DNA of 64,000 bases from Egicoccus sp. AB-alg2 (GTDB taxonomy: Bacteria > Actinomycetota > Nitriliruptoria > Nitriliruptorales > Nitriliruptoraceae). The notes under the pieces were generated by a model. It did not search any database, had not been told where the DNA came from, and was given only the letters and a program-made list of their open reading frames with translations. The DNA lies in the NCBI RefSeq assembly GCF_041821065.1, contig NZ_JBGUAX010000006.1, forward strand, positions 186,001 through 250,000. The letters are read 5' to 3'. Position numbers and translations under genes: made by a program. Positions 14,953 to 24,836 of the stretch are shown here, piece after piece. Within the stretch, counting starts at the first letter, position 1; every line of letters starts with the position of its first letter.

Positions 14953-14985
14953 CTGTAATATGTGTGCAATATATTTGTAGCATGC
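14953..14985. promoter_or_regulatory. AT-rich divergent promoter/operator between gntR and ribokinase
   Basis: The spacer 14944-15005 is strikingly AT-rich for this genome. It holds TGCAATATATTTGTAGCA (14965-14982), an imperfect dyad with TGC/GCA ends, and the -10-like TAATAT (14957) and TATATT (14970). A GntR operator over two back-to-back promoters is likely by position; the exact site is uncertain. Confidence 0.45.
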
Positions 14986-15005
14986 TGGCTGTCAAGGAGA
15001 GAGAC

Positions 15006-15896
15006 ATGGCGAGGGGCAGGGTCGCGGTCGTCGGCAGCGTGAACATGGATGTCGTGGTGCCCGTGCCGCACCTGCCCGCGCCCGGGGAGACCGTGCTGGG
15101 AGGCCATCACCGGCAGCTTCCCGGCGGCAAAGGGGCGAACCAGGCCGTCGGGCTCGCTCGCCTCGACCGCGAGGTGGCGCTGATCGGGTGCGTCGGTCGC
15201 GACGACTTCGGGCAACGGCTGCGTCGGCACCTGAGCGGGGAGGGCATTGACGCCGCAGGGCTGCGCGAGACCGATGCGCCGACGGGCATCGCGGTCATCA
15301 CCGTCGCCGACGACGGCGAGAACCAGATCGCCGTTTCGCCTGGTGCCAACAGCCTGGTCGGCCCCGAGGACGTCGAAGCCGGCGGCGTGGCGGACGCCGA
15401 CGTCGTGCTGTGCCAACTCGAGGTGCCGGTCGGCGCGGTGGAGGCCGCCGCGACCCTGGCCGGCGGCGTGTTCGTCCTGAATCCTGCTCCTGCCCGAGCG
15501 CTGCCGCCCGGCCTGCTTCAGCGCGTGGACGTGCTCGTGCCCAATCGCACCGAGCTCGGCCAACTCGGTGACGCGAACGCCGACCTCGACGACCTCGACG
15601 ACATCGCCGACGTCGCCCGGAGCCTCGGGCTGCCGGCGGTCGCGGTGACGCTCGGAGGGCAGGGCGTACTCTGTGTCACCCCGACCGCGGTGACGCACCT
15701 CACGCCACCCTCCATCGAGGTGGTCGACACGACGGGCGCAGGCGACGCCTTCTGCGCTGGGCTCGTCGATGCCCTCATAGACGGCGCGGATCTTGTGTCC
15801 GCCGCCCATTTCGGCATGGTCGTGGCCGGCAAGGCGATCACCCGCCAAGGCGCACAGACCGCGCTGCCGCGGCGGGACGAACTTGCCTGCGGATAG
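15006..15896 (+). CDS. rbsK: Ribokinase (PfkB family)
   Basis: 296 residues from ATG 15006 with AAGGAGAGA upstream. The ribokinase signature GGKGANQAVGLARL is near residue 38, and the C-terminal anion-hole/catalytic motif DTTGAGDAFCAG near 242 has the catalytic Asp. Asn of GSVNMD near the N-terminus fits sugar binding. It phosphorylates ribose, or a related sugar or nucleoside, at the 5 position with ATP. It is divergent from gntR. Its product would feed RpiB, encoded at the far end of the locus. Confidence 0.88.
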   Translation: MARGRVAVVGSVNMDVVVPVPHLPAPGETVLGGHHRQLPGGKGANQAVGLARLDREVALIGCVGRDDFGQRLRRHLSGEGIDAAGLRETDAPTGIAVITVADDGENQIAVSPGANSLVGPEDVEAGGVADADVVLCQLEVPVGAVEAAATLAGGVFVLNPAPARALPPGLLQRVDVLVPNRTELGQLGDANADLDDLDDIADVARSLGLPAVAVTLGGQGVLCVTPTAVTHLTPPSIEVVDTTGAGDAFCAGLVDALIDGADLVSAAHFGMVVAGKAITRQGAQTALPRRDELACG

Positions 15897-15908: not shown

Positions 15909-17110
15909 TCAGGCCGCGGGGACCTTGAAGGACTCGTACAGGTCGGCTGGGATCGGGTTGGCCAGCCGCCAGGTAGCGCGATCGGCCGCTCGCCCTCGTG
16001 GCGGACGTAGTCGGCCGGCCCGAGCAGCACGTAGGGGCGCGTGGCACCCCAGGCGTCCTGCTTCGACGCGCGGACCGCCAGCAAGATGCGTACGCCGTTG
16101 GTGCGCTGCTCGATGTAGCGGCGGGCCGCGGCGGAGTCCAGGCGGGTCATGTTCTGCGACTCCCAGTGGAACAGCTCGCGGCTGAGTGCGTAGTCGCGGT
16201 ACAGCGTCCTGGGCGAGTACTCGGCCTCGGTCTTCTGCAGCGTGATGAACAGCACCTCGGTGTTGGCCGGCGCGTGCCACCAGGGGCCGGTCTGGTGGCT
16301 GTAGCGCTCCCCCCGGCGCCAGCCGTCCGAACCCGGCCAGGATCTCGTCGCGGGTGTAGCTGGCGTGCAGGCGTAGCGGCACGTCGGCGTCGGGCAGCGC
16401 GATCGAGGGGCGGCTGATGCGCTCGCGGAGCAGCGGCAGGGTGGCGAGCAGTTCTTCGCGTAGTGCCGGTGCCTCCCAGACGCCGCGCCAGGCCGGGCCG
16501 AGGTCGTCGGGTGCGCCGCGCAGCGACCACAGGGTGACGAGGAACATCCACGCCCGACGACGGTCCACCTCGCCGTCCAGCACGGGTGGTCGGTCGGCAG
16601 AAAGCCCGGCGTGCAGTTGGTCGATCCGTTCGGCGACGTCGAGATGGAGCAGCCGTCAGACGCCCTTACGCAGCACGTCCACGCCGCGTCCGACGGGCCG
16701 GTCGTCGAGGTTGGCGGCACGACGCAGCAGCGCCCAGCCGCCGGCCTTGACGACGTCCTCTAGCTCGACGCCGGTCTCCTTGAGGAAGATGTCCAGCGGC
16801 GGGGCGCGACGGGCGGGCTCGCGGGCGGCTAGGCCCTGCAGTTCGCGGACCAGCGCCGTCTTGTTGGCCAGCACGGCCTGCTTGAGGTTGTTGACGACCC
16901 ACGCGCGGGCCTGGTGGTCGAGTTCGAGGTGGCAGCCCGACGGCAGGTAGGGGAAGACCTCCTCAGCGGCCTGGGCGAGCTGACGTCGAGGTAAACCGAT
17001 CAGCGCCCGCAGCCGCAGGTCGTAGCCGTACTCCCGGCGGTGCTGGCCGACGAAATCGAGCACCGTGCACACCGGCTTGTCGGGATGGCGGCGCAGACCC
17101 GGAGCACCTG
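15909..17110 (-). pseudogene. Decayed C-terminal half of a DEAD/DEAH helicase (DUF3427 type)
   Basis: Homologous-looking protein runs through three frames. CTVLDFVGQHRREYGYDLR to VDVLRKGV occupies 17072-16656. A second frame carries REELLATLPLLRERISRP down to about 16330. A third frame carries the DUF3427 core (EVLFITLQKTEAEYSPRTLY, LFHWESQNM). The second frame resumes at about 15980 and ends NPIPADLYESFKVPAA at 15909. At least three frameshifts (near 16656, 16330 and 15980) are needed, and nothing of the helicase motor remains upstream of about 17110. Intact relatives are superfamily 2 helicases often found in defence islands. This copy is almost certainly non-functional, unless assembly errors produced the shifts. 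Confidence 0.75.
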
Positions 17111-17311
17111 GACGCGTCGAGCGGTCAGATCCGCGCGGTTTCGCGCGTCATGGGGCGAACACCCGCGGTACCGCCGACTGCGGTCGCGTTGTCGCGGACC
17201 AGGGCTAGGCCACGCTGGAAAGCAACGGCGCACCGAGCCAGCGGCGAACCGCAGCCACGCAAGCCCCAGCGGGACTATTCTGATTGTTCGACGCGGATCA
17301 GGGGCACCCGC

Positions 17312-19012
17312 TTGCGACTGGAACGATTCACGGTAAACAACTACCGCAGCATCACAGAAGCAGAGAAACTCGACCTTTCCGAGTACACAGTCCTCATTGG
17401 ACCAAACAACGAGGGAAAGTCCAACATTCTGAGAGCGCTCGTCATGGGGATGTCGATCCTAGAGCGGGCGGGCGTGCGTGGTTGGACATTGGGCAACCAG
17501 TCACGGCTGCTTCTGAATCATACCTACTCCTGGGAAGACGACTACCCAAAGTCACTCCAGAAACGCAAAGCTCAAGGGCGGACGACACTCCGTTATGACT
17601 TTCGCCTTGATGATGACGAAATTCTATCGTTTTGGGACGAGGTAGGCAGCCGAATAAATGGCGAGCTCCCAATCGAAATCCAATTGGGCAAGGAACAATC
17701 ATACTTCCGCATTCCCAAAAAGGGACCCGGCGGAGAGGCATTAACAGCTAAGCGGAATGCGATCGCTGGGTTCATTGGTCGTCGGTTATCCGTCGCATAT
17801 GTCCAAGCTCAGCGAAGTGCCGCTGACAGCCAAAGAGAAGTAGACCGATTGGTGCGTCGTGCCCTCGATGACTTACAAAGCCGCGCCGACTACAGAGAAG
17901 CCCTAGAACTGATCGAGTCCCTCCAGGAACCAATCCTAAGCAAGTTGGCGGCTTCCCTCGAGGAGACGCTCTCCCTGTTTCTTCCCGACGTTAAACGGGT
18001 TTCTATCCGTTTGGATGAAGAAGATCGCCGCCGGCCCATCCGCAGCAAGATCATCATCGACGATGGCGATGAGACGCCATTGGCGGCCAAGGGCGATGGC
18101 ATTCAGAGCCTTAGCACTGTCGCCTTGGTGAAAGATGTCGCCGAGCGACTTCGCCTTAGCAATGACATTGTGCTTGCCATCGAGGAGCCGGAAGCACATC
18201 TGCACCCAGGTGCGATTCACCAACTTCGCGCAGTCGTTGAAGACATCGCAACTACGCAACAGGTCATAGTATCGACGCACAGCCCTCTCTTTGTGAACCG
18301 CAATACATTGGGCAGTAACGTCTTAGTTAGAGACAACCGGGCACGTACCGCCGAGTCGGTACAAGAAATTCGAGAGATTCTGGGAGTACGGACGTCGGAT
18401 AACCTACACTCGGCCGCCGTGGCAGTAATCGTCGAGGGTGCTTCCGATCAGCGGATACTTCAAGCGATTATTCCTACACTCTCTCAGAGTTGCGCTCGTG
18501 CCCTTGGGTCTGGAGAGATGGGCATCCAGGCCCTACACGGCGGCACAAACCTCTCCTATCGGCTCGGCGAACTTGAGTCTGGGCTCTGCATTCCACACGC
18601 ATTTCTCGACGACGATCAATCGGGGAGGACTGCGGTCACGAGAGCGCTGGATCTCGGTTTGATCCGCGACAGGGACTACAACCTCGCATCGCGTCAGGGC
18701 TACCGTGATTCAGAGATTGAGGATCTTCTGTCAGTCGATGTATACGCCGATCACGTCAGGCGCGAGTTTGGCGTGAACCTCAGAGATAGGTCGTTTACTA
18801 GCGCTCGAAGCAAGTGGTCAGAACGCGTAGAACGGTCTTTCTCGCGAGCGGGCAAGCTCTTCGACGATGCCGCGATGCAGCGGATCAAGACCCTCGTCGC
18901 CACGTCAGTCGAGCAGAATCCGGAAGGGGCACTCCTTGAACCATCGCTTGGCGTTCTACAAGGACTCGTCGATGCGTTAGAGGTGAAGCTCGGTGGCGTG
19001 ACTAGCACGTGA
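17312..19012 (+). CDS. OLD-family ATP-dependent nuclease (AAA ATPase plus TOPRIM)
   Basis: 566 residues if TTG 17312 is used (AGGGG seven bases upstream, TATTCT at 17276 as a possible -10); the longer frame to 17150 is unsupported. Domain order is an ABC-like ATPase and then a TOPRIM nuclease. Walker A is GPNNEGKS (30-37) and Walker B is VLAIEEPEAHLHPG near 287. The TOPRIM Glu is in VIVEGASDQ near 372 and the Asp cluster FLDDDQSGR near 431. OLD nucleases act in phage defence, alone (class 1) or with a UvrD-like helicase (class 2, Gabija); no such partner is present. Base composition drops to roughly half GC here, far below its neighbours, a strong sign of recent transfer. Its stop overlaps the next GTG. 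Confidence 0.85.
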   Translation: MRLERFTVNNYRSITEAEKLDLSEYTVLIGPNNEGKSNILRALVMGMSILERAGVRGWTLGNQSRLLLNHTYSWEDDYPKSLQKRKAQGRTTLRYDFRLDDDEILSFWDEVGSRINGELPIEIQLGKEQSYFRIPKKGPGGEALTAKRNAIAGFIGRRLSVAYVQAQRSAADSQREVDRLVRRALDDLQSRADYREALELIESLQEPILSKLAASLEETLSLFLPDVKRVSIRLDEEDRRRPIRSKIIIDDGDETPLAAKGDGIQSLSTVALVKDVAERLRLSNDIVLAIEEPEAHLHPGAIHQLRAVVEDIATTQQVIVSTHSPLFVNRNTLGSNVLVRDNRARTAESVQEIREILGVRTSDNLHSAAVAVIVEGASDQRILQAIIPTLSQSCARALGSGEMGIQALHGGTNLSYRLGELESGLCIPHAFLDDDQSGRTAVTRALDLGLIRDRDYNLASRQGYRDSEIEDLLSVDVYADHVRREFGVNLRDRSFTSARSKWSERVERSFSRAGKLFDDAAMQRIKTLVATSVEQNPEGALLEPSLGVLQGLVDALEVKLGGVTST

Positions 19013-19653
19013 CCTCATCATTACCCACACCGCGCAGATCAGTAATCGATAGCGTTCGTCGGCAGACCGTCGTCTCGGTGCGCCGTCGTTCGGGCGATCA
19101 GCAGTTGCCTGCGCGAGCCGATAACGTTCTTGGGTGCGGTGGCGGGTTGGGAGCGAGTGTGGGCTATCGCCAAACGGACTCCGACGGACACGGCGCCCCC
19201 AGCTTGGCTTCGAACTCGCTGCCAGCCTCATCCGACGCTGTCCGGCGCCGCTTCCAACGGCAGCGAAGGGCGAGCACGAAGCCGGAGATGCTGATCCGGA
19301 GGAAGCTGCACCGCAGGGGATGGCGATATCGCGTCGACACTGCGCCACTCGCGACCTATCGGCGACGGCGCGCTGACATCGTGTTCACACGGCTTCGCGT
19401 CGCCGTCTTCGTCGATGGCTGCTTCTGGCACTCCTGCCCCGACCACGCGACGCGTCCCAAGGCGAACGCCGAGTGGTGGCGTGCGAAGCTGCAGGCGAAC
19501 GTTGAGAGGGATCGCGACACCGACGCACGCCTCCGGGAAGCGGGCTGGGAGGTCGTGCGAATCTGGGAGCACGAGCCCGCGGAAGATGCCGTCGAGCGCA
19601 TCGAGCGCATCCTGATCGCGCGTCGGGATCAGTCGTCTTCGGGGGCCACGTAA
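19009..19653 (+). CDS. vsr: Vsr very-short-patch-repair endonuclease
   Basis: 214 residues from GTG 19009 (GTGA overlap with the OLD gene). The Vsr domain fills residues 75-205: FQRQRRASTKPEMLIRRKLH, the metal Asp of RADIVF, the intercalating/zinc loop VFVDGCFWHSCPDH, and NAEWWRAKL. It nicks T:G mismatches left by deamination of 5-methylcytosine, matching the cytosine methyltransferase encoded nearby. The first 65 residues are low-complexity and unlike the family, so TTG 19204 may be the real start. The 3' end overlaps the convergent nuclease gene by 25 bp. Confidence 0.85.
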   Translation: MTSSLPTPRRSVIDSVRRQTVVSVRRRSGDQQLPARADNVLGCGGGLGASVGYRQTDSDGHGAPSLASNSLPASSDAVRRRFQRQRRASTKPEMLIRRKLHRRGWRYRVDTAPLATYRRRRADIVFTRLRVAVFVDGCFWHSCPDHATRPKANAEWWRAKLQANVERDRDTDARLREAGWEVVRIWEHEPAEDAVERIERILIARRDQSSSGAT

Positions 19654-20408
19654 TCGATGGACTTCCCAGCCGCTTCGTAACGCTGGACGGCCCATCGGTC
19701 GACGACTTTTCCCAGAGTCAACGTGGTCTCAACACGTGGGCGTCCGCGATGCGGCGGAGCGTCATGGACATCAAGGAATCGAACGGCGCCCCGTTGAGCC
19801 TCGTCCTCGGGGTCGCCGGGGACGTAGAGCGCGATAGCCGCCGCATCGCATCGGGCCAGCTGGCTCGGCAGCGTGGGATCGAGGCGCCCAGTACGCGCAC
19901 GCAGGTGCGCGACCGCGCGGGCGAAGGACGAGGCGCCGCTCTTCTTGTCTTGCGTGCTCGCCAGCGGCAGGAAAAAGAGACCGACGAGGAATGCCTGCGG
20001 CTGGTAGCCGTGGATTGCGCTGACCTCGGCCTGGAGCTCGTAGGTTCGCCCCGTGAGGTTCTTGTCGAAGTTTCCGCTCGTGGCATCGCGAAAGTTCATG
20101 CCCTTGAGGCTGACTCCGAGCTGCAAGCCGGTGGCGAGTGTCGACGCGATCACGTCGACGCGCTTCTGGTCGCCTCCGGCGACGAAGGTCAGCGACTCCC
20201 GACCGCTGCCGTCGGGGTTCGGTCGAACCTCGAACTTGCTCCAGACGGGGTGTCGTGCCACCGACTTGGCGACCATCACCGCACAGGCGTCGGCAAACCG
20301 GTTGCTCCAGTTGTTCTTGTCCGCGCGTGTGCCGTCGAAAGGCCGCTCTCCGGCGGCGTCCAAGGCCGCCACCATGTCCGGCGACGGTTCGAGCTCCGCC
20401 CACTTCAC
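19629..20408 (-). CDS. Candidate type II restriction endonuclease, partner of the C5 methyltransferase
   Basis: 259 residues from GTG 20408 (AGGGG before it); GTG 20456, inside the methyltransferase end, is an alternative. I do not recognise a named enzyme. A possible PD-(D/E)XK core is KRVDVIASTL followed by LQLGVSLKGMNF: Asp, then Ser-Leu-Lys in place of Glu-x-Lys. The segment NFDKNLTGRTYELQAEV follows. An N-terminal DKNNWSNRFADACAVMVA helix is conserved-looking. Position directly after a C5-methyltransferase and opposite vsr is the classical layout of a restriction-modification system. The missing Glu means catalysis is unproven; another residue may replace it. Confidence 0.5.
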   Translation of the reverse strand: MKWAELEPSPDMVAALDAAGERPFDGTRADKNNWSNRFADACAVMVAKSVARHPVWSKFEVRPNPDGSGRESLTFVAGGDQKRVDVIASTLATGLQLGVSLKGMNFRDATSGNFDKNLTGRTYELQAEVSAIHGYQPQAFLVGLFFLPLASTQDKKSGASSFARAVAHLRARTGRLDPTLPSQLARCDAAAIALYVPGDPEDEAQRGAVRFLDVHDAPPHRGRPRVETTLTLGKVVDRWAVQRYEAAGKSIDYVAPEDD

Positions 20409-20436
20409 AATGCGCCCCTGTCCATGGGCGCGAAGC

Positions 20437-21606
20437 CTAGGCGGACCGCGTGTCACCCGTCAGGGGCAGCGACGGATCGAGCGCGTCGACGTGCCTCTTC
20501 GCATCGAGGACGAAATCCTCGACGAACCGCAGCCGGCTCCGCGCTGCGCGGTTCAGGAAGCCCATGGTGGCCCGGCGACTGAGTGGCGGGGCGGCCTCCA
20601 GATCGACGAGATCCGCCAGGTGCGTGTAGGGCCGGCGGACCGGCCAGGTCGACACGTTCATCTGGAAGGTCTCGCCGTCCGCGCCCCACGCGGCCGCCGG
20701 CCAGCGGACCTCGCTGCGTGGATTCGATGCCTCGGCAAGCCACTCCCCGGGCGTCTCGAGCCGGCTGGCCAGCCAGTCCGCCACGACAGTCGTAACCGCA
20801 TTGCCGACGAGCTTCCACCGCGGACCGTTCTTCGTGCCTGAGGCGACCGCCTGCGTCCAGCCCCGTGGAAAGCCCTGCAACTGCTCAGCTTCCTCGATGC
20901 TTGGAACTACAAGCCGGCGTCCCTCCGGATTGGCTGGCGCCCAAATCGCCGGCGGTGAAGCGATGCCGACGCCCGAACCACCCTTGAGCGGCGGCACGGC
21001 GTCGGGAGCCCATCCCAGCCCGCCGAGTCCCTCCGTCCAGTAGAAGCCGACGGCATCATCCCGGTAGTAGTCGTCCCCCGGCTCGCCAGCGTCGTCGGCG
21101 AACAGAACGCTCCTGGGATCCTCGGTGCGAGAAGCCACGAACAGGACTCGGTGGCGGCGCTGCGGAACCCCGCCGAAGCGGGAGTCGACGAGCCGGTAGG
21201 CCCACCGGAACCCGAGCCGCTCCAACTCGCCCGTGAGGAACCGCATGGCCTCACCCTTGTCGAGCCAGAGCATGTTGCGGACGTTCTCGAGCACCAGCCA
21301 GGTCGCGTCAGACTGGTCGAGCAGACGGAAGACCTCGCGCACGACGCCGGAGTGCTCGCCGTGAATACCTGCGGTGCGCCCGGCCTGTGAGAGGTCGGTG
21401 CACGGGAAGCCGGCGTTAACGACATCGACCGACGGGAGCGACTTGATGTCGCGAACGTCACCGACAAGGGGCACCCCTGGGAAGCGGTCGGCCAACACCT
21501 TCTGCGACGGCTCCCACGAGTCCGCCAGGAGTGTCGTCTCGTGGCCACGCTCATGGAAGGGCAGCTCAATGCCGCCGATCCCTGCAAACAGCCCTGCTAC
21601 ACGCAT
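20437..21606 (-). CDS. DNA (cytosine-5-)-methyltransferase
   Basis: 389 residues. The C5-methyltransferase motifs are in normal order. Motif I is FAGIGG (7-12) for SAM, motif IV is GFPCTDLS with catalytic Cys69, and motif VI is ENV (107-109). Motif VIII is QRRHR (149-153), and motif X is GNAV near 272. The target-recognition region between VIII and IX is short. An additional C-terminal tail of about 100 residues follows motif X, which is unusual. It protects the host sites cut by the adjacent nuclease; the Vsr gene would repair deaminated methyl-C. The recognition sequence cannot be read from the protein. Confidence 0.9.
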   Translation of the reverse strand: MRVAGLFAGIGGIELPFHERGHETTLLADSWEPSQKVLADRFPGVPLVGDVRDIKSLPSVDVVNAGFPCTDLSQAGRTAGIHGEHSGVVREVFRLLDQSDATWLVLENVRNMLWLDKGEAMRFLTGELERLGFRWAYRLVDSRFGGVPQRRHRVLFVASRTEDPRSVLFADDAGEPGDDYYRDDAVGFYWTEGLGGLGWAPDAVPPLKGGSGVGIASPPAIWAPANPEGRRLVVPSIEEAEQLQGFPRGWTQAVASGTKNGPRWKLVGNAVTTVVADWLASRLETPGEWLAEASNPRSEVRWPAAAWGADGETFQMNVSTWPVRRPYTHLADLVDLEAAPPLSRRATMGFLNRAARSRLRFVEDFVLDAKRHVDALDPSLPLTGDTRSA

Positions 21607-21758
21607 GCTCGTACCCCGTGATCGTCGGATGCAGCGGGGGGCGTGGGCTCGCGGCCGACCATGTTGGGCGGGACCTCCGCACTGGCTGGGCCAGTGGAGC
21701 GACAGGGTGCGACATCGCCGCTCTCGACCTCACCGTTCCTGTGGAAGAGGACGCCGGA

Positions 21759-21778
21759 GGCGCTTCCGCGGAAGCGCC
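21759..21778. terminator. Palindrome, candidate terminator after nrdJ
   Basis: GGCGCTTCCG-CGGAAGCGCC is a perfect 20-bp palindrome about 21 bases after the nrdJ stop (minus strand). It can form a stem of eight or nine pairs. No clear T-run follows, as is common in high-GC genomes. The rest of the 193-bp gap 21607-21799 shows nothing else. Confidence 0.4.
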
Positions 21779-21799
21779 CCCGGCCAGACATCGTTCGAC

Positions 21800-24604
<2,805 letters not shown>

Positions 24605-24781
24605 CGGGCGTGCTCCTTCTCTTGCGGTTCGGACCCCAGCATCCCCCGGGGCTGTGACGTGTCGTCGAGGTCCGGCCTTGCGTGTCTGGACGGTGGAACT
24701 ACACGCGTGTGACCGAGGGCTCACTGAAGCGTCCGAGGCGACCGTACGCAAGCAACTCGACCTCGCGCCCGACATCGGAAT

Positions 24782-24836
24782 ACACAACCGATAGTGGCCC
24801 TAGTGGGAACGCCACCACAAGATGTGGTGTTCCCAC
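24782..24836 (-). promoter_or_regulatory. Two NrdR-type boxes over a possible nrdJ promoter
   Basis: Box 1 is ACACAACCGATAGTGG (24782-24797). Box 2 is the perfect palindrome CACCACA-AGA-TGTGGTG (24813-24829), itself nested in GTGGGAAC/GTTCCCAC (24803-24810 and 24829-24836). The boxes are about 32 bp apart, three helical turns, as known for NrdR. On the minus strand TTGTGG-N18-CACTAT could be the promoter within them. The start codon is about 180 bp downstream. The remaining gap 24605-25104 holds a long leader and one DnaA-like TTGTCCACA (24885), with no gene that I recognise. Confidence 0.6.

Follow-up and report, generated by a model that had tools for sequence, protein, structure and literature searches.

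An OLD-family nuclease gene beside a probable type II restriction-modification-Vsr cassette in a variable slot of the Egicoccus sp. AB-alg2 genome

Background

When a gene for an OLD-family nuclease is followed on the same strand by a gene for a Vsr mismatch endonuclease, and the two appear to overlap by a GTGA, are they partners or only neighbors? The question is raised by positions 15909-21606 of the stretch of DNA analyzed here (64 kb with a GC content of 71%, hereafter the window), which is part of contig 6 of the Egicoccus sp. AB-alg2 genome (4.84 Mb in 29 contigs). A sequence-only reading had placed in this interval an OLD gene, a Vsr gene, a C5-methyltransferase gene, an open reading frame (ORF) between the last two and a dead helicase gene, all of which are indeed present, and had proposed either that OLD and Vsr act together or that the island was recently assembled. 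Our analysis leads us to believe, with good confidence, that the insert found here combines a type II restriction-modification-Vsr cassette with a separate, unrelated OLD gene.

Results and discussion

An insert next to the ribonucleotide reductase gene

The genes in question are flanked by a pfkB sugar-kinase gene (14964-15896) and by a class II ribonucleotide reductase gene (21800-24787). DNA of two congeners, G011 and G009, is homologous to the window through the remnant of a restriction gene up to position 17099, and again from 21799-21800, in the reductase gene. Between these two sharp synteny breaks (17099/17100 and 21798/21799), no DNA homology to either congener was found. The insert delimited in this way (17100..21798, no strand assigned) is 4.7 kb long, and the four genes at 17312-21606 all lie inside it. 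Its ends were searched for terminal repeats and duplications, and only short repeats at chance level were seen. Promoter and terminator scans gave no more matches than in shuffled sequences, and no tRNA gene was found in the 64-kb window.

In both G009 and G011, this reductase gene has an intact helicase gene downstream; in G009 the interval between the two contains ORFs that look transposase-like by eye. In another genome, G010, a single contig carries both the reductase gene and the sugar-kinase gene, with about 36 kb between them. Since these genomes differ in what they carry between the reductase gene and the helicase or sugar-kinase genes, the slot downstream of the ribonucleotide reductase gene is variable. 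The corresponding interval of G011 holds a 394-aa ORF with a LAGLIDADG match (L085, 4878-6062).

The remnant of a type IV restriction gene

The older occupant of the slot is a minus-strand remnant (15909..17099) of a SauUSI-like type IV restriction gene of PLD-helicase-DUF3427 type, recognized by its identity to the G011 gene and by tblastn. The gene is intact at the same locus in G009 and G011, and the G011 copy encodes 1118 aa with PLD, ResIII, Helicase_C and DUF3427 domains, in the likeness of SauUSI. It matches the PADLOC type IV model mREase_IV at 4.7e-261 and PDB entry 7clg at 1.8e-76. This entry was deposited as a 'putative helicase', and we take it to be the SauUSI structure. The window copy, in contrast, corresponds to residues 723-1118 of the congener protein, that is, to its last 396 residues or last third; the 5' two-thirds are missing, including the nuclease and motor domains, and the single intact chain of PLD, helicase motor and DUF3427 that characterizes SauUSI is not found in it. 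Its DNA is 86.5% identical to the intact G011 gene, up to the 5' truncation at 17099, and tblastn with the intact protein reveals one in-frame stop and frame changes. The dead helicase of the sequence-only reading is borne out by this truncated and damaged gene.

The front of the gene was lost in the variable slot that holds the insert, and one may ask whether this loss was selected. A 5mC-dependent nuclease would be incompatible with an incoming 5mC methyltransferase, so that one epigenetic defense would have been swapped for another. SauUSI is an ATP-using enzyme that cuts m5C and hm5C DNA (PMC3874153), the insert that truncates its relative carries such a methyltransferase gene, and the Egicoccus sp. 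AB-alg2 genome gave no other DUF3427 match. However, one case cannot part selection from chance, and mutual exclusion of SauUSI-like and Vsr genes, taken as the sign of such a conflict, was not found in 296 genomes of the phylum, where the comparison of DUF3427 with Vsr (11/28 versus 58/268, Fisher p 0.06) leans in the opposite direction. We therefore regard a selected loss as unlikely. On contig 1 of G104 (276883-284165, with the Vsr side in L091), about 6.5 kb separate a DUF3427 gene, in a 1337-aa frame, from a Vsr gene paired with a C5-methyltransferase gene, and the two kinds of gene can therefore coexist closely.

Vsr belongs with the methyltransferase

The C5-cytosine DNA methyltransferase, called M below (20437..21606, minus strand, 389 aa), matches PF00145 at 4.9e-39 and the PADLOC model MTase_II at 5.6e-124, and its nearest solved relatives are M.HhaI and M.HaeIII. 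It overlaps by 20 bp the start of R, the gene of a 275-aa candidate type II restriction endonuclease that is also on the minus strand (19629..20456). The Vsr gene, on the plus strand (19204..19653, with a probable start at TTG 19204 or GTG 19159, not at GTG 19009), is convergent with R, whose last 25 bp it overlaps, and lies 0.8 kb from M. Vsr scores above the curated cut-offs of TIGR00632 (115.3 bits for 97.85) and PF03852 (51.3 for 27), was aligned to the E. coli Vsr structure 1cw0, and is found, like other members of its family, in association with a C5-methyltransferase.

Using M as a query, and without selecting on Vsr, we found nine further places with relatives of M in the 296 phylum genomes (E <= 1e-60). 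Eight of the nine have a Vsr place of the same genome within 4 kb, the exception being on contig 27 of G179. The two genes are directly adjacent in G318, G260, G082 and contig 1 of G179; in G146, G203 and G303 they are separated by a gap of 0.87-0.96 kb, enough for one gene of the size of R; and the second copy of M in the window's own genome has Vsr at 3.5 kb. Starting from Vsr instead, a C5-methyltransferase was found no farther than 4 kb away at 42 of 75 actinobacterial loci. Identities of M and of Vsr are correlated over 43 loci (r 0.24, reached in 0 of 2000 permutations, shared ancestry not being corrected for). The sequence-only reading had set the present arrangement against the usual pairing of Vsr with a methyltransferase, and this contrast disappears, Vsr being part here of a probable restriction-modification set. 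At another locus (L105, 3737-8041), a PtuA-type ATPase gene (PADLOC PDC-M01A, 2.5e-162) is found 0.9 kb from Vsr and a C5-methyltransferase.

R as the candidate restriction endonuclease

M is a clear methyltransferase; R is a candidate by its gene neighbors and by an invariant motif. Searches of Pfam, PADLOC and NCBIfam with R gave no match, so that it has no curated family; its profile gave only chance matches against the PDB, and an AlphaFold2 model based on 3 sequences (mean pLDDT 35) is too poor to use. Seven R sequences nevertheless share D101, S116 and K118, and this D101...S116-x-K118 arrangement is compatible with PD-(D/E)XK nucleases. On four plasmids, homologues of R share a 14-bp overlap with an N-6 DNA methylase gene, and the same pairing occurs on two viral contigs; no R homologue was seen alone in viral contigs. 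The four N-6 methylases scanned beside R homologues are all M.Eco57I-like. In G303, a C5-methyltransferase gene, an R homologue and Vsr follow each other in one same-strand run, which means that M, R and Vsr of the window all have homologues in a single run. Altogether, and counting the window, there are eight loci at which a homologue of R overlaps or adjoins a DNA methyltransferase gene, and these methyltransferases are of two chemistries. These neighbors and the D...SxK motif lend support to the nuclease candidate of the sequence-only reading, as a predicted restriction endonuclease.

Alternatively, M and Vsr could be an orphan methylation-repair pair of the kind of E. coli Dcm-Vsr, the orphan prototype, and R not a cognate restriction enzyme. 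It could be argued in this sense that R is without curated family or solved relative, and that no R homologue adjoins several of the related M-Vsr pairs. Against this stand the methyltransferases of two chemistries that adjoin R homologues, the invariance of the D...SxK motif, and the R-sized gaps between M and Vsr at three related loci. An orphan pair thus appears to us quite improbable, and we infer that R is the nuclease that works with M. The arrangement resembles type II restriction-modification systems with Vsr (TIGR00632) in that a C5-methyltransferase lies near Vsr and a restriction-endonuclease candidate overlaps the methyltransferase gene, and is unlike them in the opposite strand of Vsr, convergent with R, and in the absence of R from curated families.

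At two loci (L047, 5379-6200, and L057, 5221-6060), related M-Vsr pairs have another unassigned ORF, 273-279 aa long, at their side. It may be an alternative restriction endonuclease, and R genes thus seem to be exchanged from one M-Vsr cassette to another. Tentatively, and as a possibility that we would rank somewhat below its opposite, R may stand for a family of type II restriction endonucleases not described so far, whose members pair with M.Eco57I-like N6-adenine methyltransferases as well as with C5-cytosine ones and exchange partners between the two chemistries.

In the type II cassette that we favor, M would methylate cytosine to 5mC within a short site of the host DNA, and R would cut the same site where it is unmethylated, in incoming DNA. 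Vsr would nick beside the T:G mismatches that result from deamination of the methylated cytosine, and would in this way limit the mutational cost of M.

A separate OLD gene

The fourth gene of the insert encodes a 566-aa OLD-family ATPase-Toprim nuclease (17312..19012, plus strand), identified by the PADLOC model Old (1.8e-34), by its motifs and by its nearest solved relative, the Thermus scotoductus OLD (PDB 6p74, 1.5e-10). Pfam gives AAA_15 and AAA_21 matches and no separate Toprim domain match, so that the Toprim part is assigned by motifs and by the alignment of relatives: among relatives of 32-40% identity, the Walker A and Walker B motifs, an H-loop-like histidine and the Toprim-type acidic E/D residues are invariant. 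A start at 17150 is not borne out. The three relatives examined start two residues ahead of the residue aligned with leucine 3, and we accordingly place the start at TTG 17312, giving 566 residues.

With a GC content of 0.551, where Vsr, R and M have 0.66-0.69, OLD is a gene of foreign composition, and this difference suggests that its origin is separate from theirs. It would have been acquired on its own, upstream of Vsr. Together with the sharp synteny breaks relative to two congeners and the interrupted older restriction gene, this composition supports the assembly of the island, which was the other proposal of the sequence-only reading. Among the matches listed, the closest relative of OLD is 72% identical over 500 residues, with DNA similarity across the OLD gene only. 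It is found on a contig labeled as an Ignavibacteriales metagenome-assembled genome (L146, 2914-4567), of about 65% GC and possibly mis-binned, and its reading frame breaks near residue 502. A search of the 296 phylum genomes, weak in that few candidates were scored per genome, gave no OLD match besides that of the window itself.

The gene has the features of class 1 OLD, such as P2 Old and the 6p74 protein: the motifs predict an N-terminal ABC ATPase and a C-terminal Toprim nuclease in one chain, encoded by a single gene with no UvrD-like helicase or reverse transcriptase partner found beside it. Class 1 OLD genes have been described as not proximal to other defense genes (PMC10568477), and the OLD of the window, known here from its sequence, departs from this description, having Vsr and the restriction-gene remnant as neighbors. 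Gabija (GajA-GajB) was also considered, GajA being an OLD-family relative, and ruled out, as no UvrD-like GajB gene follows OLD and the next gene is Vsr. OLD is probably a standalone, class-1-like predicted ATP-dependent nuclease that would act against phages by itself.

Are OLD and Vsr a unit?

We scanned about 85,000 species, each represented by one genome, and obtained at least 465 OLD relatives. We analyzed the neighborhoods of the best 80 of these, plus four viral and two plasmid loci, and located OLD as an ORF in 84; flanks are shorter where contigs are short, and the survey concerns the OLD clade of the window, which served as probe. Neither Vsr, M nor R was found near OLD in any of the 84. 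The only recurrent neighbors are type I restriction-modification-like genes, at 8 loci at most (L147, L158, L194, L195, L198, L205, L215 and L217). From the other side, no convincing OLD was found near 75 other actinobacterial Vsr genes; of two weak OLD-profile matches near Vsr genes, one was a PtuA-type ATPase and the other a generic AAA protein. The recurrent OLD-Vsr adjacency that had been proposed as a check is therefore absent in these samples. Our literature search found no paper containing both 'Vsr' and 'overcoming lysogenization defect'.

The overlap itself is doubtful. A GTGA shared with OLD requires that Vsr start at GTG 19009, as in the longest-ORF call, and the N-terminal residues so added do not have the codon-position GC of the core: GC contents at codon positions 1/2/3 are 0.69/0.61/0.62 for 19009-19200 and 0.67/0.55/0.81 for the Vsr core. 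Moreover, in 45 of 73 homologous Vsr ORFs no extension beyond 30 residues ahead of the core is possible, and the 73 have a median upstream extension of 17, the longest ORF being chosen each time. GTG 19159 or TTG 19204 fits these codon-position values and homologue lengths better; Vsr then probably starts near 19159-19204, about 150-190 nt after OLD, and the GTGA probably reflects a wrongly called start codon. A second Vsr gene of the Egicoccus sp. AB-alg2 genome, in the region 2666-8377 of contig 16 (L043), directly follows a lexA-like gene, also with a GTGA overlap at its stop, which shows that overlaps of this kind can form next to genes that are not related. This Vsr converges with a C5-methyltransferase from the same subfamily (51%) and with two ORFs, of 576 and 465 aa, that have no assignment.

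That OLD and Vsr, adjacent and on the same strand, form one translationally coupled two-gene unit with a joint action on DNA is ruled out for practical purposes by the neighborhoods examined on both sides, by the probable error in the start codon and by the partnership of Vsr with M, here and elsewhere, and the co-function proposed by the sequence-only reading is left unsupported. Read-through from OLD into Vsr is possible, since Vsr is on the strand opposite to M and R and directly downstream of OLD.

Conclusions

The locus is ordinary in kind: a probable restriction-modification-Vsr cassette and a class-1-like OLD gene, in a variable slot by a SauUSI-like remnant. Its analysis corrects a tempting claim, since OLD and Vsr, if they were translationally coupled as they seem to be at first sight, would point to a new joint system. 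R, a candidate family of restriction endonucleases absent from the curated profile libraries searched, is worth keeping. The slot itself provides a clear case of defense-gene accretion, with a cassette and OLD now occupying the position of the lost front part of a type IV restriction gene.
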